Assembly: GCA_950295325.1 (NCBI GenBank)
Contig: OX485803.1
Location: 34,737,554 to 34,801,553 of the forward strand
Source: Polytrichum commune
Taxonomy: Eukaryota; Streptophyta; Polytrichopsida; Polytrichales; Polytrichaceae
Direction of reading: 5' to 3'
Length of the DNA: 64,000 nucleotides
Part shown: in pieces, positions 30,120 through 63,580 of the stretch
Layout of the letters: every line of letters starts with the position of its first letter
Position numbering within the stretch: position 1 is the stretch's first letter
Translations under genes and position numbers: made by a program
Notes under the pieces: generated by a model
What the model was told of the DNA's origin: nothing
Seen by the model: only the letters and a program-made list of their open reading frames with translations
Database searches by the model: none

Positions 30120-30494
30120 AGATAGATAGATAGATAGAAACTCCGGTCCTTTTTTAGCAAGGGGCCGGCGTGAATAAAGTGTCCGTTCGTAATGTCAATG
30201 ACCCGATGCCCACTGGACAAGGGGACATTGGGGCAATACTACTCTCCCCTTTCGAGGATGGACACTATAGTGACACACTATACTAGTTCCTAGCTAGCCA
30301 CTAGTGCCTTGAAGATACCGGACATGGTATCCCCCCAAAGGACTTTGAGGTACCCATACAACAAGGTCCAAGGACCCCCCACCATAGTTGGGTGGACTAA
30401 GGTGGTGAGCACCACACCGGCATGGGGAATAGAACCCACAACCTCCTCATTGGGGGCCATGAGCCCTAACCACCAAGCCAAGGCCCGTGGTGCC
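30120..30494 (-). mobile_element. Full-length tRNA-headed SINE with (TATC)n tail
   Basis: 375 bp, flanked by exact 12-bp duplications CCAAGTATGTAC (30108-30119, 30495-30506). On the minus strand the 5' head carries a box A-like TGGCTTGGTGG (30480-30470) and box B-like GGGTTCTATTCC (about 30436-30425), spaced as in a tRNA promoter. The 3' end has a GGCCCC...GGACCGG stem-loop and a (TATC)n tail. These are SINE hallmarks: an RNA polymerase III internal promoter, no coding capacity, and a target duplication made by LINE machinery. Confidence 0.85.
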
Positions 30495-30520
30495 CCAAGT
30501 ATGTACGCTAAATAGTCCTT

Positions 30521-30590
30521 ATTAGTGTGGGTGGAAAGGTAGCATGGAATTAATTAGTGTGGGTGGAAAGGCAGCTTGGAATTAATTAGT
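30521..30590. repeat. 32-bp tandem repeat, about 2.2 copies
   Basis: Units starting ATTAGTGTGGGTGGAAAGG at 30521 and 30553 differ at two positions. A third starts at 30585 and stops after eight bases. It lies just right of the SINE. Confidence 0.85.
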
Positions 30591-31377
30591 GCAGGCCACA
30601 CCAAACTTGTTGGTGAAGGTGGAATTTACGTGGCGTCCAAGACCCCAGTCTTCTCCTAAGTCTTCATTAAGATTTCCGACCCGTACCTTGAATTTTAGTT
30701 ATTAGACATAAATAGCACAAAATAAAATAATCACATGTATGAATTTTTTTTTATAGAAAAAAACAATTTTTATGGTTCATACTAATCTTCTACTATAATG
30801 GATAGAAAATTATTGTGCCCTAGAATATTACAACTATTTAGTGTAGGTACATGGATACGTGGAACATTGGTAGTCGTGCATGCTTGTTGACTCTTTAACC
30901 AAATACATAAGTCTTCCCAATCATGTCCATTGCTGAGTGTGGATTACGTAATAAAATTTTGATGCATGAGGTAGAGAAATATAATCAGAGAGGTCATACC
31001 AGAACTAAAGAGAGTGAATAGTTGTCTCTTCAAAATGTTAGGTTATGATCGGTTAAGAATGTCAGTTTTATAACTTGGTGGGAAAGGTCAAAAGTATGAA
31101 CATCACTGACCTCATTACTTTATTCTCATGATAAATGTTATCACCAATGAAATTTGAAGGGTGTGATTTGGATCCTCACATGATTGTTGGTTTGTCCCAT
31201 GATGTTTCGATCCGTGTTCGCATCTCATCCCCGGTTTTTACATTACCCTTAACAAAGGCTCCCAACCATTATATGTGCATAAATAGTGTTATAAATTGAC
31301 CATTCCAATTGGCGTGTTCAAGATGGTGTAAAACTTCATTAGGTCAAAGTGCAAGAAAACAAAGAAGTCGGCCTTGA
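30591..31377. other. Intergenic, nothing recognised
   Basis: AT-rich spacer between two SINE insertions. No supported gene, RNA or repeat seen. Confidence 0.5.
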
Positions 31378-31395
31378 GAAAGGTTCTTGCAACAA

Positions 31396-31442
31396 GATAG
31401 ATAGATAGAAACTCCGGTCCCTTTTTAGCAAGGGGCCGGCGT
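31396..31442 (-). mobile_element. 47-bp SINE fragment: stem-loop plus tail only
   Basis: Consists of the (TATC)n tail and the CCGGTCCC...GGGGCCGG stem-loop of the 30.1-kb SINE, ending at its ACGCC. Perfect 18-bp direct repeats GAAAGGTTCTTGCAACAA flank it (31378-31395 and 31443-31460). This is a genuine, extremely 5'-truncated retroposition product. Confidence 0.93.
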
Positions 31443-31460
31443 GAAAGGTTCTTGCAACAA

Positions 31461-32674
31461 CTATCAAGGTTGAAAGTATTTATTCTGAAGGAGTTCAGCT
31501 CGTCTGTCATATGAACCTCGTGGCGGGACATTGGTGTCCCATAATACACCGGCTAAACCCTAAAGACCACGTCGACGTCAAATTTTGTCAATTTTAAGGC
31601 GATCAAAGCAGTGTTGAGATTATCTCGACGTTTTCTACACACTCTGATGTTCGAAGTTGGTTTTTCTTTTCAACCACTTATAACCACAAAACCAAGGGTT
31701 AGACTTGTCTTCACTTCTTAGGAGTCGTGCTCTTTGTATTGGGATGGATATGCTAAAGTTACAACCCAATTGTACCCGGATCACTAGTCAGCCAGTTGCT
31801 CCACTTTGTTGAGCACACTTAAAACATGACGAGCCTTGTCACTTGAAGCAGGAATAACAAGGAACCAAATCGCCTAATTGCCATGTTTTTTAAGTGTTTG
31901 TCTCTTGATGTCAACGGGTGGTAAACCTCGGATAAATCACTATTGTATTTATGAAGCCCTTCGTGGCACACCTTGATCTTATATGGCGAATCTTAGATGA
32001 AGGGGTTTATTTGTCTTCAAGAAAACGGGTTTTAAATGTGAGTGTTGAGACAACCATCCGTCAAGATGGTAGCATCAAGATTCCCTTTCCGTCCGTGTTT
32101 AAGAAACATGTCATGTACTTGAGGGGGAGAGAGGGAATTACGGCATACGAACTGGTGCCATTCATCTATCCAAAGTAGAAACCTAGTAATCCCAATAGGT
32201 TTGTGGTCGATTCATCACATATAATTTGGACTAGACAAATTCATGGTCTTAAAAATAATTTCAGTACCAATTGATTACAAAGAATAACCTCCGGGCTGCA
32301 AACTATGTTAGTGTTTTTATGTTGGATGAATGTGAACTATGCTCGTATGCTCTCTCTCTCTCTCTCTCTCTCCTAACTTGACTCAATGATAAGTTACATA
32401 TGTCTTTACTGAAAGGTGATGATAGTATGCATGTGAAAAGGCTCTTCCTCCATGCTTGTTTTGTTCACGAGGTTCACGTATCTATATATCAACAACTCCA
32501 TAAACCTTTTGAAACCAAACAAAATATGAATGACGTCACAAAGGTCCTTACTACAATGACATGCGTGTTGCAACATCATATGTCAAAAAAATCAAAAATC
32601 AAAGAAACACACCAAATACCATCAAATACTTCACATTGCTTGTCCTCAACAATCAAGAACTATAGTGGTGTTCC
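31461..32674. other. Intergenic, nothing recognised apart from a CT repeat
   Basis: A pure (CT)n run occupies about 32350-32372. Open frames at 31951-32178 and 32400-32729 show no family resemblance. Confidence 0.5.
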
Positions 32675-33014
32675 CTCGGGGGGGGGGGTAGTCATTGGTT
32701 GGAGTAGCAATATACGTGCGAACAAATGATAGGGTATTTTAAAAACATGGGAGCAAAAATTTATAATTGGGCTTAAGAGTAATATAGGGTATCAAAAATG
32801 GCACTGGACATCTTTAAAGTACTATAGGGTATGGAATAATAGGTAATTTGAAATTATAAGTAATGCAAGCCATTTTTCTATTGACCCAAAGTAGAAATTT
32901 ACATAATGATAGCATGTGAAAAAAAGAAGAGAATTGAAAGTAATACCCCCCTATAAAATAGTGGTTGTTCGCACCTATATCCTTAACTTTTTAACACACT
33001 GCCCCCCCCCCGAG
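32675..33014. mobile_element. hAT-like MITE with G-run termini
   Basis: 340 bp from CTCGGGGGGGGGGG to CCCCCCCCCCGAG, between exact 8-bp duplications GGTGTTCC (32667-32674 and 33015-33022). Subterminal GTGCGAACAA is present inverted about 50 bp inside each end. An 8-bp duplication fits hAT (or, less likely, P) elements. No transposase. Confidence 0.82.
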
Positions 33015-33022
33015 GGTGTTCC

Positions 33023-35659
33023 ACCCCAAAGTGGGATAATCAAAACGACTGCATAACATGGAATACAAAGTGCACCTACCACAAAGTAGTCAACAAACCA
33101 TATCATGTACCAAGGGGACTCTTGAATATGGTGGGACCAAGGGACTCAAATTAAGGTTGACAATATTAATGATGTAGTTTTTTTCAAGTCTTTCCTTTTC
33201 TTTTTGTGACGACTTATTACACCGAGCCATGTTACAAATGCACAACCCTACGTATCGAGAGATTTTCAAGAGTGCCTAAAAGTGCACATGTCATAGGCCA
33301 TATGTATATTGTTCTTCGACCAATTGGCAAAGCTACAACTAGGCCTAAAGTTTTGTAGACTAGAATGGTCCATCGTCAATTATGGGGACCTCAAGGATCA
33401 ACGCGAGGAATGAATGCTGCATGGAGATTATATTCATGGAGTTGAAAAGCGCCTGCAAAGTTTAGGAGCGTGGGGAGTTGTTTGGAAGTTGTGGGTGTCT
33501 ATCCAAACTCATTTGTTGCAAAGGTGAAAAATGTTGTACACTATTGTATAGTATGTAAAATGGCTATTTTAAAATGACTTGACTTTATAAACATCACTAG
33601 AAATCCCTTAAAGTAAAAAGAATCAATTGCCATGAATCAACTTTCATCTTGAAGTGGACTTGTAATTAAGAACGTCCCTTCATTCACAATGGATGTGTTT
33701 GCATAGATGTCACAAATCACAAATCACTTTAGGAAATCATGTACCTACTTTGTCTCGTATTTGTAGGTGTAGGTGACACCTCGGGTCAACTAACCAAAGA
33801 TTCGTAGTAGTCACGTAAGCTAAAAAATGAAACATTGGGAACTTGTTAGGTATAAGTCACATTTTTTGTTGGGTTAGGTAGACTTGACTATGGGATTAGT
33901 ATTAAAGACCCCAAATTTATCCACTCGTATCAAGTTGGAATGTATCAACCTTAAAGTCACATAGGATTAGTTTATGGTTGGCTTAAGTAGTCCATCATCT
34001 ATTGGGGAAGGGGGATTGCAAAAGCCACGTATTTTGTCTCGTATTAGGGGTGTGCATAGGCGATACCTTGAGGTATGCAAGAGCTTTGTGGTGCCTATGG
34101 TTACTCATATATTGGGAAAGGTGAACAAAATCAATGGATTTTGTAACCTATAGTTTTTATTTATTTTTATAAAAAAAAACTTCAACCCAACTTGACTACA
34201 ACAATGGAGTCAAAGACACCAAGTTGGTCTACCAAATGCCAATTGGGGAACCACAACTGACATACATGGGAATTGTTTCTAAAGAAGTCCCTTCATCCAA
34301 GATGAATATATTTGTCCAAAACACCACGAAGGCCAAGCCCCTAGGCGCATGTAGCAAAGGATTCATGGCAAACATGTACATTGAAAGTGAAAACCCTTTA
34401 AGCTGAAAATTGGATTTTAACTTGACCATAAAATGACCACTAGAGACCCCATATTAATCTAATGACAAAGTTATTTTAATTCAACAATTTTACGCAAGAG
34501 TAAGTTTTAATTTGAATCCTTGACATGGTAATTTTAACTTTGTTTTCCTCCTCCTTTTTCAAAATGCCATAACTCATAGTACTATTCATTAACAAACATG
34601 TGTTGGCATAGAACACTCTTAATCGCTCTACAAGCATCTTAGAGCACACATTGATTTTCTTGAAATGTACGGTAAATGAACATGTATTCATGAATTTAGT
34701 ATCACTCAATATAAAAATCAACTCTCACTAATTTGAGGTGGGCAAAATAGTGTGTGTTTCTGGAATCATTACCACACGTACTAATTGGGATAATCGATGT
34801 ACTTTGCTTACTTTCACTTTGTATGGTGTATGGATTCCACCTAGAAGGAGCCTCAATAAATGCAAATTCCACATTATTAGTGTAATTCCATATGATGGTG
34901 CCGCATCCTCAATACACAAATCGCTTGTGGTACATCACATGGCTTGACACGATCCATATATTAAGGTCTCGTCATGAAAACTGACATTGTGTGATCCCAT
35001 TTGACATATAGAAGGTTATGTAGCTCTTATGTGATCAATCTTCTTAACCAAACACCTATATTTGAGTGGTATGTAACAAGCTTTGTATCTAAGAACATAT
35101 GCTAGATATATAGACACGTGTTACAATGAGATTAGACTATATATGCACTTACAATATAAACACCATTCCATGTTCAAAATCTATTGAATATAATTTGGGG
35201 GGCGGGGGGGCAATGTGATCATTTAAAGTTGAAGAATATCTCCACTTTGACCTCTTGCACCTTTTGCATCTCCACACCAATTTGAAAGGTGAAACAACAA
35301 CTCATGCAATTTGTAATTGCTATGTATATGAGATAATTTTCGATTGTGATCCAACGATTCAACTTGGAAATGGAATCGCCCACAATAGGTCGCATACCGT
35401 AGACTATTAATCTATGCATTGGTTGACTTACCGATAAGCATTATTTTCATCGTCAATATTGTAAGTGTTATGTGCACGAAAGGGGTTTGAACAATATAGT
35501 GTGTATTTTGAAATTGATGCGGATCACACCAATTTATGAACATGGTGGTTGAGAGTTACTTTTATATAGGGCAATGTAAGCATAGTATGCCGAGGGCACT
35601 ATTTGACTATCCTTTGAGAATTAATCTATAAACTTGACATATTCACGGCGACGTTGATG
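33023..35659. other. Intergenic, nothing recognised
   Basis: AT-rich spacer. A broken G run (about 35199-35211) resembles the G tracts elsewhere, but I found no matching inverted end. Open frames near 34224-34947 overlap each other on both strands without motifs. Confidence 0.45.
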
Positions 35660-36169
35660 TTAGGGGCCATTTCACACACGAGCCAAGAGCCGTGACCATG
35701 AAGTTGTGAGAGCCCAAAAGGCAGTTCCAAAGGCTGTTCCAACACACTTCCAAAATAATGTAGTAGTGCGGTCACAAATCCTCAAGTGTAATGTGAAGCC
35801 ATATGTGACCGGGGCCCTTAATCAAATGCTATTTCATTGAAATTTTTATTCATGCGGGTCCTCGCACTCGATAAAATAGAATAAATCAACAGTTGTGAGC
35901 ATCTGGAGTGCCATGGTCACTTGGTCTCATGTTAGGCCTACCTCCAAAAGGTGGTTTTAAAAAATAGTCCAAGTGACCATGAAATACGATCCGTTTGATG
36001 CCATGTGGGAATCCATGTAGACTTCACATCCATCTTGCATTCGCATACTCCATTGGTCCCTCAAGCATAGTGTGAAGTGAACTTGGACCGGCTCCGCCTT
36101 TTCCACCAATGAGAGTGCTTGAAGTGCAATGGTAACAAGCTCTCAGTCTTGTGTGCGAAGTGGTCTTAA
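35660..36169. mobile_element. ~500-bp TIR element (TTAGGGG family), copy 3
   Basis: 510 bp. Left TTAGGGGCCATTTCACACACG and right CTTGTGTGCGAAGTGGTCTTAA are inverted. The copy aligns end to end with the 29.1-kb copy and, inverted, with the 27.0-kb copy. It is the best-preserved left end of the family. No coding capacity and no clear target duplication. Confidence 0.8.
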
Positions 36170-39100
36170 GACAATCCATTGTTTGGACTCTAAAGTAAGC
36201 ACGACCTGCTTTAACAATTTCAATAATTTGCTTTTTAGAAAAATATCCCAAAAAATCATTGTGATGCTCAACTCTTTTGAGCACATGTAGTCCATGTAAA
36301 GGTCTAACTTACTAGGTTGAGATATCTTACCCAATCACCCAAACTTGATTCATTCTTCGATCATTCTCAACCCATAGGGTGGTTTGATGAAATTGCTAAA
36401 ACAATGTTTTCACATACAAAACAATACATTATAGTATATCGACACCTCAACACAAACTAAAAATGATAGGTGGGGTTGTCTCAAAACTATAGGCTTTTGG
36501 TTTCTAGAAGTTGTTAGCATTGACAAGTTCTCACCGATTCATAAATCTAAAGGGTATGCTCGCAAAGCTTGTGAACTCATGATGTTGGGTCATTATCAAT
36601 CGTACTTATGGTATGCAATGTTATTAGGTCATTGGAGTCAGTCCGTTATTTTGAAGTCTATGTACTACCTACACTTATTGTCAACGTGTATTCATTTCTA
36701 TGTATGTTATGACATCGATTGAAGACGAGGGAAGCTAGCATGCAAGCGGTGAGTAGGGAGCGATGACATGTGAGCAGTGAGGAAGAAAACTTGGAATAAG
36801 GGCTATTCAAAGAGAACATTGCAATATAGTTGGTACATAGAGTTTGGATATAACATATTCGAGAGAGCATAAATATTAAAGCGTACCCGATTACCATGGC
36901 TTTTAGGGTGCATGATGGTTCATGGCAATACACACTATATTGAAATGACAACACACAATTGGAATGTAAAGCACATGATTGTGACAAAACAACCAATTAG
37001 TTGCAACATCAATCCGCACTACATTTCCTATGGACGCACATATATGTTTCTATATCAAAAAACTAATCAGTCTGGAACCCTTTAACTTTGTGTATTCAAC
37101 TATGCCTTCATCCTCGACGAAAATGTTCACATAGGTTCAAACAAATAATATGCACATTGGATTCTTCTTCCACATAACATTCATGTGTTTGTCAAATCCA
37201 TAGCAATAGGTCTATTTACAATTTTTTTTTGTAATTGATAAAAAAAAACTTTCATCAATCACATGAGCATTCACCAATTGAAGACAGATTGACAAAACCA
37301 TACAAAATTTGATTCTAAACTTTATAACAATAAAACCATGATATATATATATATATAAATGTCATCTTCTAAACAAAATTAAAATACACTATAGTCTCAT
37401 AACCCAATAAAATATGCATAAAAATATATAGCATTTGAAAAATGCGTTTGTTTATATACAATGTTATGTAGAGTCTTTTATTTACAGAACAATCTTCAAC
37501 GATGTACATAATATTAGACACCAAGATAAGCATTGTCTCCAACACATGTGTGAGCGAACTTGAAGTAGTCAATCCTCATCATTGGTCGTTCCTTATGGCC
37601 AACGTCAAAGTGTAAAGGATTACTTGCTCATTTCAAAAAAGAACTCGTGTAGACAACTAGTGGACGTGACATCTCTAGAGTTGTAGAGAGCTAGCTTTAG
37701 TGCACATGACACTAAATGCCACAAACAATGGGATCCGGTTTGTGAAGATCGGGTGAATTGTGAGACGAGAGGTGGACATGAGACCATGGCAACAACAAGT
37801 CATTCAAAGGTAGACAACCTTGACCGTTTTTTTTTGGGGGGGGGGGGGTTGGTTTTCGATTAGGACACACATGTTCAATATAGTGGTGTGTGAGTCAATA
37901 TGGTTGGAAGAATACATGCCAAAATGACATGTGCTCAAAGGAGATTAAACTTCATGTTCAACTTATGATGATCATTTTGGACTCGATAATCAACATAATT
38001 GGGGGGGGGGGGGGGGAGAGAGAGAGTATACGACCACTTAAGGAGCATGAAAATGTTCATTTTGATAATGGATAAGATATTTACATGAGCTGTCGGAACT
38101 ACAAGGAAAGTGGTCATGCCATTAAATTGGATTTGCCATCTTGTAAGGTTAAAGAAAATGGAAAACGGTGAATGACCACTATTGGTGCACTGGACGAAGA
38201 GTAGAATGATTCTCACGTGGACCCAAAATGGATGATTATAAAAATGATGGCTCGTAAAGGATGTTGTGATGGGCATGATGTTGGACAGGTCATGTTTCAC
38301 AACACTTGAGATCACTTTCAGATGCCATTGAGTTAACTGTTCTATGTGCATTTGTATGCGGAGTAGGATATTTTGATGCTCAAATTAGGGAAACTCTTCT
38401 ATACATATCGATGGTGTAATTGACTTGCCTCTTCGGGGGAATTGTACCTAAATATTTACATGGAATCAAAGCACAAAACGACTTGCATTCCTCATCATTT
38501 CCTCTATTCCATCTCTAAAAAATCATTGCACAAATTTCAAGGCCCTCTTTCGGGCCGAATCGGCTTAGTTTCACTGGGAGTTTCATATCCTAGAAGAAGT
38601 GGGCTAGTCATAAAAAGTACCCATATATTTGGTTGTTGTCCCATTATGAAAGCTCCTTTGCAGCCATGGACTCTTGATTGGTTCACTTCTTTATCACACC
38701 CCGAACAATAACTACAAGTAGGCATTTCCTAAATTAGGTTGTAGTAGGGCGATAAGGAATGAATTATCTCGCATACAAGCGTACCTTTCATCCATCCGAC
38801 ATGTAAAACTTTGACCACCTACATATAGGGTAGTTGCCAATTCATATCGGATGACTTAGACTAGACAATTTTAGGGTCTTCGAAGCTAATTATAGTGTCA
38901 AATCAACAAATGAAGAGTAATTCGGCATGATTGCATGGTGTTTTAGGGCTTTTTTTTAATGTTGGATGATTGAGAGGTACGTTTATATGCGATAATTAAC
39001 CTCTCATCTTGTTGCAGTGTCGCTTTGGATGTTACCTCGGGATGGATGAACTTGAAATTGGGGTCCAACATTGAGTGTCGCACATGTTTTCCATATGTTA

Positions 39101-39676
39101 TAACCAATGTTGTTATGGCATCCAAGTGAATGCAAGGTATCAATAATCAACATCTATAAATGGTATGAAGGAATCTACTCGTGGGTATCAAATTGTGATA
39201 CCTTCTTACATTTTGATATGTTACACTTGAGTTATTATTTGGGTCAATGTAATTCTAGACCATATTGATACTAGGGTGACGTTTCCTAGGTATTACAGTA
39301 TGCATACCTGAATGGTATAAAAGACAAACAAAATTTGTCAAAGTACCCATAACCTACTAGAATCTTAAAATGGGAAACTAGATAGTTGGATTTCTTTTTA
39401 ATATAGAAATAACACGATGCCAAATCAATATTGGTTAAGAATTATGGAACCACAATAACATAATTGTATATTGCACTCCAATGTTGGGAAATCAATCTCA
39501 TAACAAGGGTTGTTGACTTTGGTTAAAACTTGTTATTGTTATTACAATCAACGTCACAAGCACATACTCCAAAACACTCACATACTACATTTCACCCGAC
39601 AAATTGGACCCAATTTGTGATTGGGTGTTGAACCGGTAAATAAAGTGCCCTATTTACAAGTTGGTAAGATACCGTA
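36170..39676. other. Intergenic with homopolymer tracts, no gene recognised
   Basis: Contains an (AT)n stretch near 37340-37357, a T9-G12 run near 37829-37850 and a G run of about 17 followed by GA repeats near 37999-38028. Short open frames are not supported by motifs. Confidence 0.45.
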
Positions 39677-39816
39677 GAGGGCTTCCTATTTCATCTTTAC
39701 ATGTGCTGGAATATAGTTTCCAAGTGGGATACAAGTAGGTCGCGACGAATATGAACATGACACGTGGCAATTTTGGAGGGGAAAATAATTTATTTGTGTC
39801 GGAATAGAGAGCCCTC
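39677..39816. mobile_element. Stowaway-like MITE, copy A
   Basis: 140 bp between TA dinucleotides. The left GAGGGCTTCCTATTTC and right GGAATAGAGAGCCCTC ends are inverted repeats. TA target and short inverted ends are the Stowaway/mariner pattern. Relatives lie at 61667 and 62742. Confidence 0.82.
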
Positions 39817-39818
39817 TA

Positions 39819-42800
39819 CAGTAGAAGCAAACCCAAGAGCACCTGGGTATGTATCTTGCGTTGGAGCTAGACATTGGGTAAGGAACAACATCAACAATAT
39901 TACATTAGCTTTGTAGCTGGCGCAAATTGAGAATACATGCTTTATGCATGTGGATGGTCAACCCATTTGCAACAAGTGTTCACAAAATTTGAAATTTAAA
40001 CGTGAACATTAGAAGTTGGATCTACAACCTTGCATTGCAAAAGGGTGCATCTACCTTCGTGACACTATTGATGTGAATCTTGGGTTTTGAATAACTAGCT
40101 AAACATGGTCATTGTGAATCTTCAAGTGGTGGATGTAAATCACATGTTATTGGATAGGCGTACACATTACATTATGTAATTCTATGATTTTAAGTGTGAC
40201 ATTGAAATTAGTGCGTCTTGAAAATTCAAGTGATTTTCATGACTTGTCATGGAGCAGAGAGGTTGGGTGGCACCCTCTATGATTGCATGCAGTGATTGCA
40301 AAACAAAAAACGTTGTTTATGGTAAATAGGGGGTAAATATTGTAGGCATGATTATAGTATGCCTTAACCCTTGCCGCATTATATTAGGGTTCAAAGTATA
40401 CACCGTTACACATAAAAATGGAGTGGAACCCTACACTTGGACAATTTGATTTGCATCAATCTTTTCACATACTCGTCTTACCAAGATGATTTCAATGGAA
40501 ACTATGTTATTTTCTAAAATATCAAAATATATGAAAATTCTAGATAGATGTCATTTGATAAGGAATTTATGAGAAAATGGCCTCGTTACTATTGAAGTCT
40601 GTTTTTTGAAATCAAATGAAAGATATCCAAAACAACCTAAGTAAGATGAGAATGACATGAATTTCATTTTCTTGGATTGTCTTTCAAATGCTCATTGTTT
40701 CTCATCCAATAGAAGTGTTGTAATGTACAACACAAACCTCCGAAATCATATAGTGTGGGGTGGAGTGTAGTGTGCATTCACAACAATACCCCTGATGTTT
40801 GTAGGACTAGGTAATCTTTGAGACCTGGGAAGGATTACCTGGACATGACTATTTTGGCGTTGTCCTCTTCTCCGCGCCCTCCAATCATGAAGATCAATGG
40901 CATGGATCAAGAACATGGGAACAAGAGGGTTACGCTTTGTAAAAGGTGTTCTCTTTACATGTCCCCAAAATGCCACCTCGTGCGTACGCTTCACGATTAT
41001 GTGTTAGCATTGTTATCTATAATGTGGCCACAATATTTACCATGAACATTTTAGTTCAAGTTGACGATGAATAGTGAAGGCCACACTAGATTAGGGTTTT
41101 CGTGCATTTCAAGCACGACGATGGAAAACATCCGGACCCCGTCGGATGGGATGCTTGCCAACCACGTTCATCCAACCGCCAAGAACGTGACGAACATTAA
41201 CCCTTAAAGGACAATGCTGCCCCACGGGCTTGGTATTATTTTGGGAGAATCTTGTTCAAAACTTCTACTCCATTGCACCAAATGGGATTTTTAGAACGCC
41301 AAATCAAGCACCTTAGCAAAATCTATACTTCTTTAGAATAGAGCCTATGTAAATTAATTGGTTGATCATGCTTAAAATGAAATTTAAAATATATATTTGG
41401 GTGTGGTATCGGGAAAGCATATGTCCTTTAAGGGTTAAAAGCTCGAAAACCGAACCACCGTTCCCGAGCCAAACAAGTCCACCAAACTTTATGAGTTCTA
41501 AATTTGTACAACACTAAATGTATATTGAATGTGGGGTTGGGGTGAACCTTTTTGTGATTTTTTGGTCACGGGGACAAAATGACACTACAAATGAGAGTTG
41601 ACCGTGTTCATCCGACCAACAAACATAGGTGATGGACTCACAAGAATAGGATTTGGAGCCACACAAATTGGGCCAAGGATTCGTGGCGCACATGCAAAGT
41701 CGGGTGTGAAAAAAATTGTAGGGAACTTTGTATAGCTCAAATTTGTCCATTTAAAGCGTATGTGACGTTGGCGTTTGCATTATCATCCATGGAATTTATA
41801 TGTACTACATTAAGAAGAATATTTAGTGTTTGATACACTAAATACGAACGCGTACACTAAATATCAATAACCTTATGAACGTAAGTAACATTACATGTAA
41901 AACCAAACACTAAATATAAAACTATGGTAATATGTGAAAGTTATGTGTTTAAACCTAGTGTTGGTAAGCATATGAAATCCATGCTTCACAAGAAAGGAGA
42001 TGGCCTATATCATGGGCTAAGACGGCTCCATCTATGTCCCTGAAAGAAACTTTCAAGAGTGGGTTTGGTATGGTCGAAAGGTCAAATTTTGTTTCTCCTA
42101 GCAATCGGTTTTGTTTCCCGGTTTGTTTCTAAAGACTCCCTTGTGAATTGTGTATATTGTCACTTTGAATGATTAGAAGAGATGGTGTTGTGGGCTACAA
42201 GTGAATTGGTATTAGAGGGTAAAGTGGGGGACTTGACGTAAGTAAGCAAGGGTAATTAGCATACTATAATATTGCACAAATCTCAACTTATTGGATAAAT
42301 ATCATAATTGGGATTAGTGAGAGTAAGTAGGGTTTCATACGATCAACAAGCCGAATGGGAAACATATGGTCCAATCCATGATTTTTGTTGCACAATGCAT
42401 GAAAGGGTTACCTATGGTCATGCATCGATCACACTTGGTGGGCACCCACAATTGAATGACATTGTACATGTACGAGGTGGAAAATTGTTGTAGGTTCCTA
42501 TGAATTGAGAGATCGATAGGTTCAAGTGTAGATAACCATATTTAGATAGTCATAGACTAACTCGTTTCATTCTACTCGAGTGACTTTCATCGGTAGTTCC
42601 ATTGATGAACTTCAAATCAGCTAGAAACTCAATACAAGGTTTAGATAAACATTTGACCCATAAATTTTTTTTAGAAATTTGGCATTCTAGAAGTTATTGC
42701 TAAGTTCAAATCTCATCCAAGTTGTTTTACACTTTGATTTCATTTCACCTAAATCTAAGTGTAAGATTAAGCGGACATACACAATTTGCAAAATACATGG

Positions 42801-51600: not shown

Positions 51601-51607
51601 ACAGTTA

Positions 51608-51693
51608 GGGGACTCTCAACTCCACAAACAATTGTAGGAAACTGCTTAACTGTTGGAAACTGTTCAAAATTGTTTGTGGAGTTGAAAGTCCCC
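51608..51693. repeat. Hairpin with 26-bp arms
   Basis: Arms 51608-51633 and 51668-51693 are inverted complements with one mismatch, around a 34-nt loop that itself holds AACTG repeats. Isolated, with no element ends recognised. Confidence 0.85.
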
Positions 51694-52540: not shown

Positions 52541-55271
52541 TAACTCTCCTGGAACCAGAAACCAATACATGTACATGCACACCAACCCTTTTTCAAGGCT
52601 AAATTTAGACAATTTGCACCATACATTTGCCACCTGCCAAAATAATAAAGGACCGGGAGCCATTATTACCTGCCCCATTATCCTTCCCACATACCACTTG
52701 TTGCCTTTGTCCATGCATCCGAGGTGCTTGGCATGCTGCACTGGAGCCAGTATGCTCCCATCTTAGTGTTGGTTTATGATTTAGTCGCCCCAGCTTTCAT
52801 CCTCAGCCTAGAACCACTCTTGTGGTTTTAGGCAGCTCACAATGGTTTGCATCAACTTCGCATCCTACTGTCTCTTTTAAATAACTTGGATAATAATAGC
52901 ATAATTACTGCATCCCATAACATTACGAAAGCTGATTCTAACATCTTCAATGATATCACCGGTCCAATTGTGCTTTCAAAATCCTTCCTATTGCTTGAAA
53001 CAGTCTGTTGCCTTGTGAAATTTAGCAAAAACCAGAGACATATTTATTTGCGGTTATCTTTGTAGTGGTTGAGGTTTACGAATGGTGGTTTTACACGCTA
53101 TAGTGTAAGGCAAACACAAAGTTCATGAGCAAAAAATATTCAGGGATTGACTAATTTTGTTTCATGGAGGCTTGACACCATCTCTTTGGTGTGGAGTCCC
53201 GATGATATTGACTCAAATGGCCCAACAGATTCTTTGGTATTCAAATGCGGACAAACTTTGCATCAACCAACTTAGGTGAGTCCGGCAACAATCTCTTTTG
53301 AGATACACCATGATGAATGCGCGGCAATCATGGGCGAGGTGAGAAAATGGTGCCAAGGTGAACTCTAAAACCCCGATCTTTCATCTATAGAATTGTAGTA
53401 GAGTTCATTTTGTTTCTTTTTGGTGTTTGAACATTGGCCTTTAGAGTGCATAAAGGTATTGATATGTGGTGTTATTCGTACTCATGTGCCTTGATTCACA
53501 CATCCTCTAATACTCCCCCTTAACAAGTTTCCCAACATAGTTAACCAAAAGGGAACTGAAAATTGTCACAATCCTATGCGTACACCATTTCCAAAGACCC
53601 TTCATTATCCTAATATTTGCTGAAAGATTTCAATACTACCTTGAACCCTCATTACGCCTCACAAAACTCTCCTCCACACAAAATGCCAACCAAGTGGACA
53701 CACCCACCAAGGTCGACCTATCCAACAAATCGGAACACACCCCGGCCCCTCTTGCTACTTTGAAAATCCATGTCCTCCCCTTTCCCCCTCCAACATGGTT
53801 TACATACAACCACACATCCCCTTGGCACTCCAAAAATTCCTCGCCGGCAAAGGATTTTGGACAACTTAGCAATAATTGTATGAGCTAGTAATTTGAGTTA
53901 GTTGTTGGAGTTAGTTCAAATAGTCTCATGTTGAGTAGCAGAGTTAGGATTTTAGTTCGTAATAATGAAGATGCTAGAAGGTACTTCTGATTGGTTACAT
54001 CTCGAAAACCCAATGACTTGGATTGGTAGTAAGGAGGCTAGGACCACGACTTAGAAGAAGATAATGATGGCCAAGAGGTTGGGGGCGAGAATCAACATAC
54101 ACAAATGCACAAACCACGCAAACACTCAAATTGCGATGCAGACCATGTATGGACAACCAAGAAAAACAAATCATCTGGCCCACCAATTCCCCTCCCTTCC
54201 TTGTAATCTTTGTCCACTGTAAGAAACCTACACATGTCTCCACCTTTTTCTCCATGTGCACGACCATCATCCTCGACAACATCCGCACAACCGGACACAA
54301 CAAAGCAATATGGCAAATACATTGAATATTGTTGTGCCGCTCCACAACATAAGACACATTCCTGATAAATGCATGCACTCACCTAGGGAGTCCCTAGAGA
54401 AAACAATCCCCGCATGGCTATGCCCGTGCATATGTGTCACCGTACTCAAACATGGCATCCTTACCATCACCCCTGCCTCCCTAGAGAGAACCTTGCAATA
54501 CACCACCCAACAGTTGAGCCTAAAATTCATGGAAGTCAAGTTATGGCACGACCATGGCCCTACCACCATAGTTCAATGGAAGAAGCTAAAACATTAGTCA
54601 CTAGTGGCCACCCTTGAAGATTCTAGATGGTATGTAACACTCACCGTCTTGACAAAACGTATCCAAGGAGGCACACACATAAACAACATCACCAACATGT
54701 TCAAACAATGTTACATCCATTTAATGGCCACACATGCATGCTTGCAACAAATGCACTTGATAGCTCTCAAATACCTGACCTTAGTCATGCTCAACAAACG
54801 TAAACTAGAAAATCAACAACATTCCCCACCTAAGTCAACAACAAAACCACATCCATACAACAAAATCCACATAACGAATCTTAAAACACAACGCATAAAC
54901 CCAATCAATTAGCTTAGATTAAAGGATAGACCAACCTTCCAAAGAGATTGCCAAGAATTGAACCCAACTCATGTTGCACCAAGTTAAAATATTGTGTCCT
55001 CATAACACCCACCTTTAAGATGCACTACATTGCTAAACAAAACCTCATACCCCCCCCCCCCCAACTGGGCCTACAATGCCCCCCATTACTTTTTACCCAT
55101 AGGGAGCACCTCCGACAGGGAGCAATAGTATTTCTCTCAAAATCTTGCTTAGTAAACCGTTTGAGGTTCACATATGAGCTCACGGCTACAATCAAAGTGA
55201 CTCTCTCTCTCTCTCCAACCTTTTGAGAAAGTTTTCACAATTGTTTTCTTGCATCTAGCCTCATGAACGCC
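52541..55271. other. Intergenic, no gene recognised
   Basis: AT-rich spacer. Overlapping open frames at 53995-54617 occur on both strands and have no motif. A C run of about 12 lies near 55051 and a (CT)n run near 55201-55216. Confidence 0.45.
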
Positions 55272-55283
55272 CTAGGGGTTGAA

Positions 55284-55768
55284 GATAGATAGAAACTCCG
55301 GTCCCTATTTCAGGGGCCGGCGTGAATAAAGTGTCCGTTTGTAATGCCAACGACCCGATGCCCACATGACATGGGGAAGTTGGGACAAAACTACTCTCCC
55401 CTTTCGAGGATGGACACTATAGTAACCATGAAAAATAAGGGTAGCCCCTCGCAACTTATTAGCTAGCGATAATGTTTGTTGGTAATAGTATAAGTTGCGG
55501 TTTGTTTGTGTAGGTGTACGCCAAGTCATGTTTCCTTGGTTGGTTGAGGGAGGATGTTAGTATTAAGACAGTCCGGGTTCGATTCCTGTTGAGTCCGTTT
55601 GAGCGTATACAATGTAATACATGACTTGGTGCTACTGATGAGTTAAGGCAGGAAATTTGTATCAACCAACCGGCATTGATCCCTCCCTTGAGCTATTGAT
55701 GTTTATTAAATAAATGTTGGTCAGCATTATTACCCCAACTTTTATTCAGTTGGGATTGCTTGGTTGTT
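55284..55768 (-). mobile_element. SINE 3' module joined to a different 5' body
   Basis: 485 bp between exact 12-bp duplications CTAGGGGTTGAA (55272-55283, 55769-55780). About 140 bp at the left (tail, stem-loop CCGGTCCC...GGGGCCGG, GATGCCCAC, CCTTTCGAGG, GACACTATAG) match the 30.1-kb SINE on the minus strand. The rest does not. The non-matching part carries on the plus strand a tRNA-like GGTTGGTTGAGG and GGTTCGATTCC (about 55535 and 55568) and a CCCAACT...AGTTGGG hairpin near 55733-55752. It could be one chimeric retroposon or two SINEs in opposite directions inside one duplication. Confidence 0.7.
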
Positions 55769-55780
55769 CTAGGGGTTGAA

Positions 55781-58700
55781 TACCTTGAGTATTGGCTCTA
55801 GGCTCATGCAGAGGAGGTTTTTTTCAAGGCCATTTCAGTTTTCTAAAGAACCACGCCGTGTTGGTGATATCGTTTCACTGGCATTGTTAGATGCTAAGTT
55901 TGAACCATCAAAGCTCCTTATTCAAAGGCATCATGACGACAAACCTTGGTGATACAAATGGAGAAGCCCATCACCTTCACAATGTGTGGTGCAACTTGCC
56001 TATGTCAATTTTTTTGAAAAACCCAATTCAGAAAGTGGTCCAAGTGCTCGGATCGGCCCAAGATGAGCGTACAATTTATACTATGGCATTTACAAAGTCC
56101 AAACTATAGACTTAATGCTCCCTTCCCACATGATCCTCTCATCGGTACCTAAACATGAGACAAGAATATAGGACCTCCAAAAGTGTCGTCTCCTGCCCTT
56201 GTGATTGGTTGCTTTTTAGTCTTAGCTATGAGGGCACGAGGAGCTCCATTAACAAAAACCGATGGCAAGATAGGTGAGTAGTAAGGGATTTGAGGATGGG
56301 ACAAAAACTTCCCAACATTTATTGTTTGGTAGATAAACCAATAAACATGTGTGAAAACTACTTAAATAAAACCTACTTGAAAATCTCCAGACTTGAGAGC
56401 AAGTTCTTGTAGGTGCATTGGGATAGCCGGATGCCTCCGCTATAACTGAGTGAGCTTTATCCAGTTATTAGGAAATATTTTGGGTCTAAGCTAAGGTCAG
56501 GTGGGAAGGGGGGATAAGTTATGTAAGTGGCCATCCTCGTGTTTGTGTAGGGTTTTCACTCTAAACTTCCAATAACTTGACACCTTTGTTGTGGACAAGG
56601 TGTATGAAGAATGGCACCACGATTTAGAGGTGACAATGTGATTGTTGGATTTATGTAGCAATTATGCAAACGCAACTCTTGGCTCAACCTAGGTTCCTTT
56701 AGATTCTCAATAGTGATATTTGTGGGTCGAGGACACCCATATGTCCTAGACATGCACATCTTGGTCCGATGTCGAAGTAATTTACAATTCTCATTGTTGC
56801 TTTGATTGTCTTCGTCGTGGTCATGTTATGTTGTTGTTTGTGACCTATGTGGTCTTATGTGTTGCCTTATGTGAGGTCACACGTGCCTTATGTATCGCCT
56901 ACTTCAACTAGTACGTCGTCGATTCTCGATCAATTGGTTGGAGTCATGAGGTTGTTTGTGGATTCCGTCATAGTTTTGTGGTGACAATGTTGTGTAGAAT
57001 CCAAATATGTGCTTGTTGCAAATTTGAATCCACTTAACTTGGAATTGGTATGTTGTCATTGTTGTTAATGTTGTTGTTTTGGTTTTTGTTTTTGTTTTAT
57101 TAGGGGGATCACTGGAGGTGCAATTTTGAGACCATAGGGTTAAGAGGACTACTTTGGCATGTAATCTCTAATGTACCACTATTTTATTTTATAAATGAGT
57201 AAAAAGAAATGTAAGACATTATTGTTGGACATGTCATTTGCATCACTCTTCATTTTACATGCTATATTGCCAAATACTATTACTATATATATAACATATA
57301 ACATATTATGTCACCAAATCCCAACATTTAGCTTAGATGTTTCGTTAATTGTACTACATGCAACTCTTATTTATGGGCAAAACTTCTACGCTTGTGCCAT
57401 GCCATGGGCTAACTCTACAATAATACCAAAAGGCCCAAAAAAGGGTTGATGCAAACCTTGTATATGCACAACTCAGATACTCCCTAAGGCATGCATTCCT
57501 CTATTTGAATTTGAGCCCCCTTTTACAAAAGGATATAAATTGTATATCTTCAAAGCTAGGAAGATTGCTATCAAGGGCATAAGCATGGTCAAGTACACAA
57601 CTCTATTACCCTGCATAGATTTAAGTGAAAGTGATTCAAAACTATATACTAACTTTCAATTTTGTGAAAAAAAAATTCACAAGCATTTAGAATACAAATT
57701 GATCTACAAAGCCAAGCAATTTATGTTGACAAATGTTTTTTTTGGAAAATTTTAGATATTTTGAAAAATGATGCAAGTAGTGTGCAAGTAGGTATATTTA
57801 ACATATAAGTGTCTAATTGTTTTTCAAAAATATGATCAAATATGATCAAATTGATGTTTTTCTATAATTTTCAAATCATGGTGTCCTTGATTTTAGAATG
57901 AATTCAAGGAATATGACAGCAAAATCCAACTTCAAAATATTTAAGGTCATGAGATCTATGTCCAAAACAAAATTTAGCCATTATCTTTTCAACAATACTT
58001 TTAATTATAGGCTTTGAAGATCCCATCATCATATTCTATATTTGCATACCTAACACAAAGATAGAGGGCACCTTGGAATAAAAAAAATTAAACAACACTT
58101 TGCTACGACTTTTAGGCGTTTGACCAAAAAAATTATGGGTTTAGTATACCATAGCATTTTTTTCCATATACTTGACTGTGCTTGCTCCCTCAAGCATTTG
58201 TTGTACATGTGACTTCATAATGTAACATGTTTTGTGATATGTTTTGTATTTGTCCATTTGTGTCTTCACTTTCGTGATTCGATGATAACCTTATGTTGTG
58301 TGTAGATATGTTCACAAGGAATCGATCGCAAAATAAAACCATTCATGCATATGGTTTGCCAACCTTTTTCAACGCTCATATTGATAGGTCTTACAAATTG
58401 TGTATGTATACAATGCCCTAGCACGTGCTTAGGAGTATAATGTGTTTTATGCATGTCCTTATGTTGACACTTGCCTTATGGGGCTTCCCCCCCTTCGAGG
58501 AGGAAAAAGAATCAAAGGCAATTGAGAAAGTTCCGGATGTTGAGGATGTTCTAGTGGAATCCCAAGTCGTATCATTGTAGACTGGCAAATGGAATGGCAA
58601 AGGTAACAATTTCGTAACACAAACTCAACCTCCTACCAATATTCGTCCACATGCCAAAACTCCTACGAACTTAATAGGTCCTCCAATTGCCCAATTTGGT

Positions 58701-61666
58701 CATGAAATATCCTTTCTCTCCCACCTGATCCTCTTTGCAAGTTTTGGTTGTGATGTGGCAAACTTTGAATTTTCCATCAAATCTTATGTTGATGAGCATG
58801 CCAGTTCTTATATTATCAATGCACTAGCTCATCTAATGTTGTTGAAAATGTATGAATTGTCAAACAAGTAGAATTTTTTCAATTATTTTTATTTTGTTTT
58901 GCATTGTCCTTATACTTAATAGAAGTTGGATTCCAATCGGTATTTATCGATTCTTGTTGTGTGCAATAGTTTGGTAGTGTTTGTTCTATACGTGTGTTGA
59001 ATGGCTCACGCCCGCACCAATTGTTTGACTTATTGATTGTGGACTTGTGTGAAGGTTTCCTTGTCTTAATTGTGCCATAATCCAAAAAACACAATCCATA
59101 ACAATTGAAGTAATTTTTGAGTTTGCTTTCTTATTCCTCACGACAATGAATTCATTTTGTTCTTTATTCTGGAATGTAAGAATGTACACCAAGATGTTCA
59201 TACATATTTGGCCATGTCCAACTTCACTTTGGTGAGAGATTGGTGGGGTGTGAATGCTATGAAATTATGCCTCGGTATCAATGCTTGCACCGTAGTAAGT
59301 ACAACTATTTATATGTAACAATTCAACTCATTTCTATTTCATTGAAGCATAGTCGTTCCTTTATAACTTATGCTAATATTTGTGCATGTGTTTGTTTGTT
59401 GTAGTCAAAGAGGTTCCAACTTTTGCTGTTCTACTTTGAGAAGAATGCAAATGTCAAAATACACTTAAAAACACACACACACAATTCAAAAAGTAGACTG
59501 TATGTGTTAGTGAGGATGACATACATTTTAGGTGCACTATTGAGAAGGACCAACTTATGCATGGAATTTTGCCTTGATGGGCTCTCGTAAGAAACATCGA
59601 ATCCTAATCTAGATTTTTGTAGAGGCTTTAACTAAACCTGAAGCGGTAGTCATCAATGTCACGGTTTCTACCAGTGGGTTTAATAGCTTTGCCTTGATCT
59701 TTCACTAGTTATACTGTCTTTTGTAATGTGTAATCATAGTCTAATGATATTGGGGTTTTTTTTTTTTTTACATTCAAGTTTATGTGTCCACGCATGCTGT
59801 AAGTATGGACACCTTATTATTGTTTTTAAGGCAAATGACCTCATTCTCAGTAAGATACTTGAATTGCTTCTTGAATCATCATCTCAAAATTTTGGTCATT
59901 TATCACAACCATCTTTATTGGAGGATAACAAAGAACCTTCTTGCAATGTGCCGAGGAAATCACGCTTGAGTATGTGAATTTTCTTTTTTGGGGGTTTGTT
60001 TTTTTGGTTTGTTGGATTTGTAGATTAACCAACTCTCATTATGTATATAAGTACCCAATGTCCGCAAGATGATGGAGCAAATGTCATCCCCTCCCATAGC
60101 ATTGATGTTTCCTTGTATGTTGAGAGAATTGCTATTGCACAAGTGGCCACTTCAACACCCCCCCCCCTTCACCCGGAGTCTCATTAGTTTAATGCCAATG
60201 TGGAGATGTTGTTCCATTTAGGGGCACGAAGGACAATTGGGGGCACTTAGATACTTTGCATTACCACCCAATATATATGAGATTGGATTAAATATGATTG
60301 GATATGATAGTATTGAATGGGATCTTAAACAACATTGGACATGTCGTTCTATATGGGAGTGTGTTTTGGAGTTGCAATAATAAACAAATATTTTTGATTT
60401 ACTACTTATATTTGTGTTACTTTATTTGCATATATTTGGTTTCCTTTTGACCGTTGCAATCAATGGAGATTATTTAGTGTGATGAATTCCCTCTTATATA
60501 ACCTTCTATGCCTTACATGCAAGTGTCATTATTTGGCAATGCCTCGTTGAAATCATTGTGGAAACCTAGATGAATTCTAGACATATATATTAGATTGTGC
60601 TCAATATTTGGAATGTGCTTGCATATATATATATATATATAATTTTATTGTTTTTTTTTTGGGGGGGGGGCGTAGAACATTGACTACAACCACGGTGTTA
60701 CATTCAAGCTTACATATGTTGATTTCAAGGGATTCATCATGTTAATTGCACTTTGCTCAAATTCCCTACTCGTATTATTGAAAAAAAGAAAAAAATTGCC
60801 TCTATTGTTGTCAAAATACCAGAGCTTTAGGATTCTAGTGCATGTATTTCCAAATATGTTTCCTCCCTCATCGCTCACAAGTTATAGCTCACTTCATAGC
60901 ACCCTTCCAGGATTAGGTTATTATGCACAAGTTTGAGATACTTGTGTTTATTGTGGGCATTTCCAACTCCACATACCAATATGGTTATTGACTAACAAAT
61001 CAAATAACTCGTCCATGAAGAAGAATGCTAGTGGTAAATTTGCAACGAAGGTTTGTAAGTATGTATGCCATGATTCATCAAGTGGTCGTGCAGTGAGGGG
61101 GGGAGGCTCAAGGTAATTTTGAAGTTAACTTGTGTTTGTTCATGCGCCAAAATGTGTGTAAACACAATCTACCACATTTAAACAACCGTGTGTTCTGTTT
61201 GAAACTTTGTCTCTGCTCTCAAAGTGGTTCCAAAATAAGACGATGATCCATTTTCATTGGAAGTGGTCCCAAACTTCTTAATTCCTTTCTTTGATTATCA
61301 TGACGACTTTTGATATACATGAGATCACACTATGGGCAAATTGTGTGTATTGAAACTTCAATAAAAGCTCATGGCCACCTACCAATATTCAACAAGTGAC
61401 CACATAAGTTATATGTGCTTAACATGCCTTTAGTGGTTTCTAATGCATTGGCTCAAAACCAACCTACATATTAAGATAAGAATTAAAATTAAAAATGTAA
61501 GTTTAAATTCAAAGATTTATCATTTATCCATTTTGACTCCAAAGCTTGCAATCTCAACCCTCATGTTCTTCATTTAATTTCATGATTCTAACGCATTTAC
61601 TTCTTCTTTTTATCATGGTTGCCCAAATGTTCACATATGCCAAAATATGGTCACCATATTATTGTA
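55781..61666. other. Intergenic, no gene recognised
   Basis: Long AT-rich stretch. Notable only for a C run near 60157, a pure (AT)n run at 60623-60642 and a T9-G10 run near 60652-60670. Short open frames at 57195-57755, 58418-59201 and 59726-59977 show no recognisable family, and I cannot join them into a spliced gene. Confidence 0.45.
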
Positions 61667-61803
61667 GAGGGCGCTCTATGTCATCTTTACTAGTGTTGGA
61701 ATGTAGTTTCCACATCAGATCTAAGGAGGCCTCAACCTATGTATGACTAATACGTGACATAACTTGAGGGGAAAATAATGCAATTATGTCAAAATAGAAA
61801 GCC
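61667..61803. mobile_element. Stowaway-like MITE, copy B (right end eroded)
   Basis: Starts TA then GAGGGCGCTCTATGTC and shares TAGTTTCCA, CTTGAGGGGAAAATAAT and CAAAATAGAAAGCC with copy A. The right terminus has lost the final CTC-TA. Confidence 0.68.
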
Positions 61804-62741
61804 ATTGAACGGATGGAGGTTGATGGGCTCCTTGTGGTGTTGGACCTCCTTATCAAATACAAACTCATAGGTATAAAAGTTTTCATATACTTATTCCTCA
61901 TGGACATTATGTGGATTTCACAAGGTTTGTAAGATAAATGTGTGTTGTGTAAATTTGCACAAGTTCACATCTAAGTTTGCAACTTTATCAAGGGTGAAGC
62001 ATCCCTCATTTATGCCTCTTTCATTCTTCCTCTACATGCCATGTAGATGCACATGACCATCAGTTGGGCATGGATACCTTAAGGTGCATCATGGTTCATC
62101 TTTTTTTGATGGTGAACCATAGTTTCCACATGAAATACGAGTGGGTCTCGACCAATGGAAACTTGGCTTAAAATGGTAAAAAATGAGTGTTGCTAAAAGC
62201 ATGGATTTATCATAACATGATTTAATAGAAAACAATGTTTTATGAAATGGTCATCATGTTATTCTTTTTTTAAATAAATGAAATAAAAAATGTTGAGAGA
62301 ACCTATTTGGGTTCTCTCGCCACACATTTGGGGTGGCCACCAAACATTATGCATATTTGGACGTATAGGATTCCATGTCACTTTCTCATTCATTTTTGAG
62401 CATGCTCTCAATTTTTATGACCTTATGTAAAATGAAGTGGGATGGCCACTCGTTTCTCTACCAACGAGAGAATTCAGAAAACAATATCCATGAATTGTGT
62501 ATATGCCCTTAGGCGCACCCGAGCAAATGAAGAAGCAATATAAAAACTAGACTATCGCAACCATGATCATATTTCAAGATAAAATATACATGCATGTAGC
62601 AAATATGACTTGGAGTGCTAACCATTGGAAGTAAATAAATGACTAGAACACACAAGTTACATTGTAAGCCTAGTGGTCAATTTTAGAGTATGTATGTTTA
62701 ATTGACATTGGACTCATGTCCATAACTTCTTAAGTATTGTA
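61804..62741. other. Intergenic, nothing recognised
   Basis: AT-rich spacer between two Stowaway-like relics. No gene-like signal. Confidence 0.45.
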
Positions 62742-62880
62742 GAGGCTTCTCTATTTCATCTTCACATGTGCCAAAATAGTTTAGACATGGGACACAAGTC
62801 GGTCTTAGCGAATGTGAGCATGGGACGTTGCAAACTTTGAGGAAAATTTTAATTATTGTGTGTCATAATAGAGAGTCCCC
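62742..62880. mobile_element. Stowaway-like MITE, copy C
   Basis: 139 bp between TA dinucleotides (62740-62741, 62881-62882). The ends GAGGCTTCTCTATTTC and AATAGAGAGTCCCC are inverted, and the interior matches copy A (CTTCACATGTGC, GACACAAGT, GCGAATGTGAGCATG). Confidence 0.8.
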
Positions 62881-62882
62881 TA

Positions 62883-63440
62883 CAATATTATAGTTCAATT
62901 ACTCGACGTGGGGGGATAAATATTATGTGATCACCACAGTAGAAGAAAGAGGAGCCTACTGACTTTGAAGATTACAAAAATATTTTTATGATTATGCAAA
63001 TACTAAGAAAAACAATTACGGCTTCAATTTGGAATTGGTTACTATCACATAAGGACATTGTGTTTGACATCCGTGGTAGTGAGCTTATAAAAAAATATTG
63101 TTAAGTTAACCACAAATTGGTTAACACAACCATAAAAGATGCATTGCGTGGTCACATGACTTATCAAAATTTTAACAATTTTAACTGTAAATTAAAGTGT
63201 AGAGAAAGAGGAAACGGAGCTAAATACCATGATCCTCTTCATGTGTGCAATCGTAAGATCAAAATTTAACAGGTCATGTGACCGCACAACAAGTCTATAT
63301 GGTCGTTCCAACAAACTACATGGTCAATTTAAATCCCCTGTTAATTTATTTTTGAAATATCCTTCAATTAAAGAAGTTTGTGAATTACTATAGACAATGG
63401 TTTGTGTGGAACACAAGTACAATATAATTGTTATGAAAGA
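62883..63440. other. Intergenic, nothing recognised
   Basis: AT-rich spacer. It may include the unrecognised 5' body of the SINE-like copy that follows. Confidence 0.4.
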
Positions 63441-63580
63441 ATAGTGTCTACTCTCGAAAGGGGGGAGTAGATCTTTACCTCCATACCTTTGTCCTATGGG
63501 CATCGGATTGGGGGTGGATCGAACAGACACTTAATTCACGTCGGTCTCCTCCAGAGACCGAAGTTTTTCTCTCTCTGTTA
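63441..63580 (+). mobile_element. Diverged SINE 3' module
   Basis: On the plus strand it follows the order of the 30.1-kb SINE: ATAGTGTC, CTCGAAAGGGG-GAGTAG, TGGGCATCGG, ACACTT, ATTCACG. It ends in the stem-loop TCGGTCTC-CTCCA-GAGACCGA (63541-63561) and a pyrimidine tail of TC repeats. The stem sequence differs from the other copies but is perfectly paired. The 5' head is not recognised. Confidence 0.72.

Follow-up and report, generated by a model that had tools for sequence, protein, structure and literature searches.

The 64,000-nucleotide stretch of DNA analysed here (the window) lies on contig 1 of a genome searched over 408 Mb in seven large contigs. It carries a full-length short interspersed nuclear element (SINE) of ~377 bp (30120..30496, minus strand), composed of a tRNA-like head with a B box, a family-specific body, a 3′ module derived from a long interspersed nuclear element (LINE) and a (TATC)n tail. 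Very probably, this tRNA-headed SINE takes its 3′ end from a dual-endonuclease LINE of the same genome and borrows the machinery of that LINE. Stringent pairing of a SINE with a LINE is of a known kind; a dual-endonuclease LINE as the partner is unexpected.

The 3′ end common to SINE and LINE

The last ~150 bp of the window SINE (LINE-derived module at 30127-30274, minus strand) are 81-88% identical to the 3′ ends of three LINEs, L041, L042 and L084 (for L042, 145 bp at 88%, E 9e-48), and no match to the eight LINE sequences tried runs past 30274 (E 1e-4). A search for LINEs by their endonuclease domain yielded 401 candidates, 150 of which were scored. Downstream of two endonuclease matches on contig 1, by 6.3-6.5 kb and on the same strand, stands the stem-loop with its TATC tail, so that open reading frames (ORFs), 3′ untranslated region (UTR), the module of the SINE and the TATC tail follow in a row. 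The partner LINE for which an earlier note on this DNA had proposed a search, with the same stem-loop and TATC tail, is therefore present in the same genome.

The module was recognised in 11 of 40 LINE 3′ regions picked by the endonuclease domain (10 by regular expression, plus L045), while a second lineage with the same layout (GAGCCC...GGGCTC, NATTCA, hairpin and T-rich tail) accounted for 21, and 8 had no module recognised by the loosened expression; a strict expression had caught only 2 of the 40, and was loosened since reading of 17 regions revealed varied stems. Among 40 loci fetched around the module itself, a LINE 3′ UTR lay upstream in 21, a SINE head in 7 and neither in 12, the last being truncated in or beside the module. 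The module is thus mobilised as part of a LINE. As a separate observation, the opposite strand of a block of the LINE 3′ UTR (L041:7144-7420, L084:9041-9365, window 55430-55700) resembles the B-box region of a tRNA (GGTTCGATTC-type).

Movement of the SINE by the L1-type LINEs of the genome through the tail alone, with the shared hairpin as a passenger, is very unlikely. L1-type LINEs with zf-RVT are present (141 matches), and flowering plants have L1 as their principal LINE type according to the accessible text of PMC3747384. However, 40 of the 141 zf-RVT matches were followed over 1,700 bp downstream without a (TATC)3 tail coming to light (L1 3′ ends may in some cases be more distant), the module expression found nothing in the same 40 regions (L001-L040), and three exact ATTCACG sites downstream of L1 matches are not followed by a hairpin. 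Moreover, the SINE tail is not poly(A), and LINE and SINE subfamilies alike preserve the shape of the stem. A single stem-loop stood close to an L1 (C1:4904605); inspected by eye, it belongs to an independent SINE insertion (L043) and was rejected as a candidate.

The module is abundant far beyond chance: a flank-only pattern with the stem left free gave 1,443 genome matches against 22 for the reversed-pattern control, and a pattern with the lower stem and TATCTATC fixed gave 673 against 0. A looser pattern for rare stems (eighth base not C) returned 257 matches against 450 in its control, mostly chance, and was not used. For the full SINE, the best 40 scored of 1,797 first-look candidates comprised the window copy itself, 39 other copies, 98-99% identical and near full length, and one 102-bp match of 95%; this identity of the best-scored copies marks at least a part of the family as young.

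The SINE is short, non-coding and dispersed in many copies, as a tRNA-type SINE should be. An element of this type is also expected to have a tRNA-derived internal promoter for RNA polymerase III, made up of A and B boxes. Its head (30415..30489, minus strand; B box GGTTCTATTCC) belongs to a series in which the B box GGTTCnAn(T/C)C is found at 7 of 7 loci carrying the SINE body. The best match of the head to tRNA models is a weak one to tRNA-Sec (16.2 bits, below the gathering score of 47), and ARAGORN found no tRNA there. A 10-bp target-site duplication, AAGTATGTAC, flanks the window copy (30110..30119 on its 3′ side and 30497..30506 on its 5′ side, unstranded), and such duplications were found in 6 of 8 head-bearing copies examined; none was found for L096, and in L123 the start of the head was not located. 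In another copy (L119), the same head (96%) is joined to a TCGGTCTC-type LINE tail ending in TTTA, with a duplication of its own (TAAATCTCGG). Since the tail of L119 is that of a different LINE subfamily, SINE tails can be swapped. Preferred 5′ truncation at helix edges was not seen by eye in 26 loci, the breakpoints being scattered.

The earlier note had treated four places in the window (30120, 31396, 55284 and 63441) as copies of one SINE family. All four do have the 3′ module in common, but they comprise one SINE, one truncated LINE and two short 3′ ends. The copy at 31396..31442 (minus strand) consists of the tail and terminal hairpin only, within an 18-bp duplication, GAAAGGTTCTTGCAACAA, read by eye (31378-31395 and 31443-31460). 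The 5′-truncated LINE at 55283..55768 (minus strand) retains 3′ UTR, 3′ module and tail, and matches L084 over 506 bp (74%), L041 over 432 bp (75%) and L042 over 168 bp (90%); a script searching for a duplication around it found none. The 5′-truncated 3′ end at 63441..63576 (plus strand) is of the second stem subfamily (TCGGTCTC/GAGACCGA), with tail TTTTTCTCTCTCTG; it matches the 3′ end of LINE L079 (130 bp, 95% identity) and, judged from this resemblance, is likely to be LINE-derived. Its flanks TTATGAAAGAA/TTATAAAAGAA are near-identical by eye, and the exact-repeat script did not find them. A degraded coding fragment of the C-terminal, restriction-like endonuclease (RLE) region of a LINE lies at 54104..54831 (plus strand; tblastn E 1.8e-13 against the L086 protein). 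An Rfam scan of the window gave no family at gathering scores. The window also holds an abundant repeat unrelated to the SINE (31505-31695; 39 further matches of ~185 bp at 81-85% among the best 40 of 1,484 candidates) and a tandem repeat of 2.9 copies of a 255-bp unit (14006-14744).

Fold and paired changes of the 3′ RNA

The terminal stem-loop described in the earlier note is real, but the structured region reaches beyond this last hairpin to ~125 nt with a closing helix. In the window SINE, it spans 30139..30267 (minus strand) and consists of the closing helix AGTGTCC/GGACACT, inner hairpins, the ATTCAC linker and the terminal hairpin. On the minus strand, the copies at 30.1 and 31.4 kb bear the arms CCGG-C-CCCTT...AAGG(G)-A-CCGG; the form CCGG-C-CCCTT/AAGGG-A-CCGG, quoted earlier for both, is exact at 31.4 kb only, as the stem at 30.1 kb has one broken pair (G to A). 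The arms are CCGGCCCCT/AGGGACCGG at 55.3 kb and TCGGTCTC/GAGACCGA at 63.4 kb (plus strand).

The claim that the stem is kept by paired changes holds across LINE and SINE subfamilies in an alignment of 42 distinct modules (A3, in which the broken pair at 30.1 kb was also read), folded with RNAalifold. This alignment leaves out L112 and L126 (respectively truncated before the closing helix and with a shortened hairpin) and the identical modules L098 and L101; L075, L080 and copies truncated inside the module failed the collecting expression and are absent from the set. The consensus fold has 34 pairs, 13 of them with two-sided changes (10.0 in shuffles; 3 of 500 reach this number). Paired cells amount to 95.7% against 86.9 in shuffles, two-sided cells to 142 against 50.5 and the covariation score to 0.321 against 0.170, values that none of 500 shuffles attained, although these statistics are favoured because the structure was fitted to the same rows. 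The invariant letters are the ATTCAC linker and AGTT after the hairpin, both required by the collecting expression itself (with one mismatch allowed in ATTCAC), while the terminal loops vary.

It is highly improbable that the paired changes reflect subfamily ancestry only, with a few old stems inherited and no selection on shape. The copies are indeed related, and several two-sided changes (for example, at columns 104-129) fall within one clade, so that cells overcount events; furthermore, the number of further pair types (34) is no higher than in shuffles (35.0), a measure which 450 of 500 shuffles reach and which is uninformative. Nevertheless, two-sided changes occur on 13 different pairs, and sliding the partners, which keeps the relatedness, leaves only 32-48% of cells paired (95.7% before), with 8-35 two-sided cells in place of 142 and 2-8 pairs with two-sided changes. 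Paired changes also appear when the closing helix and the terminal hairpin are read at fixed positions, column pair 8-88 being T-A in 25 and C-G in 15 of the 42 modules, and 104-129 C-G in 28 and T-A in 14. In addition, the separate second LINE lineage, with the same layout, has two-sided changes at 10 of 32 pairs (A4: 17 distinct modules of 20 matched, with three duplicates, from 21 of this lineage). The folded 3′ RNA is thus kept by selection, as in a stringent SINE/LINE pair.

Stem variety was tallied in 96 usable of 100 genome matches listed, four cores shorter than 21 being dropped; the fixed 8-pair register misreads bulged-A stems (CCTC/GAGGA type). The commonest stems were CCGGCCCC/GGGACCGG (43) and CCGGCCCC/GGGGTTGG (11), followed by three, including TCGGTCTC/GAGACCGA, seen 3 times each. 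At the fifth position of the stem, most copies have C.A; one subfamily has C-G there and another T-A. In the 25 arm combinations that occurred a single time (one being a chance match from outside the family), 45 of 200 pairs were broken, compared with 10 of 72 in the 9 repeated combinations; this agrees with decay of copies whose sources had intact stems. Unpaired arms at random, which had been named in advance as evidence against conservation of the stem by paired changes if many copies showed them, do occur in single copies; being expected of dead copies, they are not counted against selection on the source elements. A SINE-like module (L126) has its terminal hairpin shortened to CCGGCCCCTTGTAGACCGG, and the same short form occurs twice among the 100 matches listed.

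The partner LINE protein and the proposed mechanism

The LINE proteins were read from frames of 2,854 (a single frame in L084), 2,167 (L085) and 2,348 codons (L086), in which Pfam identifies an endonuclease, RVT_1, PCIF1_WW (below its cut-off in L086) and RNase H. The APE-like endonuclease scores 25.5 bits for PF03372 in L084 (cut-off 24.5) and 29.9 and 32.3 bits for PF14529 in L085 and L086 (cut-off 27.4), and RNase H (PF00075) is found in all three (E 8e-15 to 1.5e-14). The zf-RVT domain at the end of ORF2 is typical of plant L1, and zf-RVT (PF13966) had no match in the three proteins at E 0.1. A search for duplications around the long copies turned up none at L084 and L085 and nothing beyond tail-like repeats at L086, so that the 5′ ends of these copies are not fixed.

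In L084, a PCIF1-like domain (cap adenosine methyltransferase family) lies between reverse transcriptase (RT) and RNase H at residues ~2106-2234. Searched against the PDB with E up to 1, this region matches PCIF1 chains alone (best E 6e-4). The catalytic motif NPPF appears changed in it, and for this reason the domain may be an RNA-binding relic. Upstream of the endonuclease, the motifs GDIETNPGP, GDIELNPGP and GDIHPNPGP occur in L084, L085 (in a separate upstream frame) and L086, respectively; they resemble a 2A site, and such 2A-like motifs suggest ribosome skipping that would separate an N-terminal portion from the polymerase.

The solved structures closest to the RT are turtle and zebra finch R2 (E 1.1e-29 to 7.6e-27). 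The C-terminus carries a CxxC-H-C zinc knuckle, RHNK, (K/R)PDILC, FIEFTY, DRF and K..KY, and the PD...E...K...KY pattern is present in an alignment of the region (A2). A fold prediction of the C-terminal 340 residues, with a predicted local distance difference test score (pLDDT) of 51.8, was set aside. A model from 26 sequences (pLDDT 71.1, predicted template-modelling score 0.67) has R2 C-termini as its best Foldseek matches (prob 1.00, E 2.7e-3, template-modelling score 0.38 over the query), with Z of 7.5 to R2Tg 1246-1390 and 6.9 to R2Bm 970-1083; the next structural matches are viral cap-snatching endonucleases. For the zinc knuckle with RHNK, R2Bm is the only PDB match (E 2.2, not significant). 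The presence of a C-terminal R2-like, restriction-type endonuclease is, on this model, supported with moderate strength. For the C-terminal part, the ratio of nonsynonymous to synonymous divergence (dN/dS) was computable in 9 of 10 pairs and lies at 0.09-0.38, values that are rough because most dS exceed 1.

The LINE thus combines an APE-like endonuclease, RT, a PCIF1-like domain and RNase H with a C-terminal RLE, and the presence of two endonucleases is the hallmark of Dualen/RandI. That the LINE is instead an R2-type element which captured an APE-like endonuclease independently, and is no relative of Dualen/RandI, is unlikely. Such an origin would agree with the R2-like RT and with the resemblance of the zinc knuckle with RHNK and of the C-terminal domain to R2. 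However, in the R2 clade the RLE is the only endonuclease, whereas an APE domain is present here; the combination of APE, RLE and RNase H is described for Dualen/RandI in the accessible text of PMC4640811, and no observation needs a separate capture.

In the mechanism proposed for a Dualen/RandI-type partner, the LINE protein would bind and recognise the folded 3′ RNA (closing helix, inner hairpins, ATTCAC linker, terminal hairpin and short-repeat tail), after which it would initiate target-primed reverse transcription at the tail, probably with the use of both endonucleases. The SINE RNA would borrow this machinery through the same 3′ module and thereby be mobilised in trans. LINE subfamilies would drift in their stems by paired changes because shape, not letters, would be recognised, and the SINE would follow this drift, at least once by exchange of a whole tail; the handle for recognition would be helix geometry and the linker rather than the loop.

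Several points weigh against this reading. Of the ten LINEs of the first lineage recognised by expression, two (L075 and L080) carry an irregular, C-rich hairpin with a different 3′ flank. The stem-loop that typifies the commonest SINE type (GCTAAAAAGGG) is on no LINE seen here in its exact form, the nearest LINE tail being 88% identical, and 20 loci of the second LINE lineage yielded no SINE. In zebrafish, specificity resides in the loop, whereas terminal loops are free here, and recognition would therefore differ in detail. The Bombyx R2 RT (3e-17) matches no better than L1 ORF2p chains (6.8e-17 to 4.3e-16). Lastly, the RLE match comes from a model of pLDDT 71, no Foldseek match falls under E 0.001, and a Z of 7.5 is too low to trust alone.

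Significance and comparison with known systems

In the same assembly, rbcL (an open frame, of which 474 aa were searched, with 9chz as the best PDB match) precedes a gene for tRNA-Arg(CCG), and an accD-like frame comes next. This tRNA is typical of bryophytes, further non-seed plants and charophytes rather than of angiosperms, and its place beside rbcL suggests a plant outside the angiosperms. A broader reading, offered tentatively and with somewhat less than even confidence, is that a non-angiosperm plant keeps abundant, probably recently active Dualen/RandI-type LINEs with a 2A-like site and a PCIF1-like domain, that a 3′ RNA shape code of ~125 nt extends across two diverged LINE lineages, and that the tRNA-headed SINE uses this code and swaps tails between LINE subfamilies. 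Dualen/RandI is listed for green algae only in the accessible text of a 2015 survey (PMC4438587), and plant LINEs are given as L1 and RTE only in that of a review (PMC9033089). No land plant is named as a Dualen host in the text consulted from the accessible literature on Dualen retrotransposons, subscription papers being mostly outside the search. The present elements suggest that dual-endonuclease LINEs survived on the lineage that gave rise to land plants. If the broader reading is true, this LINE group could supply the partner so far missing for orphan plant SINEs that end in T-rich or short repeats; the accessible part of a 2013 review (PMC3747384) leaves open by which LINE the plant SINEs ending in poly(T), as opposed to poly(A), are moved. 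Furthermore, SINE, LINE, tail and RNA shape are all readable for the pair in this genome, which also supplies many natural paired mutants.

The Angio-SINE superfamily of Seibt et al. 2020 reportedly has a conserved plant SINE 3′ domain with compensatory changes, and we know of no partner LINE for it. Its hosts are angiosperms, whereas the host here is probably none, and the likeness is one of description, not of domain sequence. A 37-bp Angio-domain is cited for this superfamily in the accessible text of PMC9033089.

SINEs that share a 3′ stem-loop with LINEs are described in the accessible portions of PMC4176376 and PMC3747384. The zebrafish ZfL2 likewise has a 3′ stem-loop, which is required and is read by its own LINE protein, recognition of the cognate stem-loop having been shown for this L2 element (PMC4176376, accessible text); it differs in belonging to the L2 clade and in its demonstrated loop specificity, as loops are free in the present elements. 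Maize and sorghum ZmSINE2 and ZmSINE3 with LINE1-1_ZM form a pair whose 3′ hairpin is kept by compensatory changes, but with an L1-clade partner, ~50 nt and poly(T) or poly(A) tails (PMC3747384, accessible text). The SINEX elements of Chlamydomonas, which pair with RandI/Dualen LINEs in Table 1 of the same review, offer a further likeness: they are short, some are tRNA-derived, their 3′ end is common with a dual-endonuclease LINE, and they end in short repeats, for example (ATT)n or (CTTT)n. The host there is a green alga and the likeness is one of description, not of sequence; the fold kept by paired changes and the exchange of tails seen here are not reported for SINEX in the accessible text of PMC3747384.

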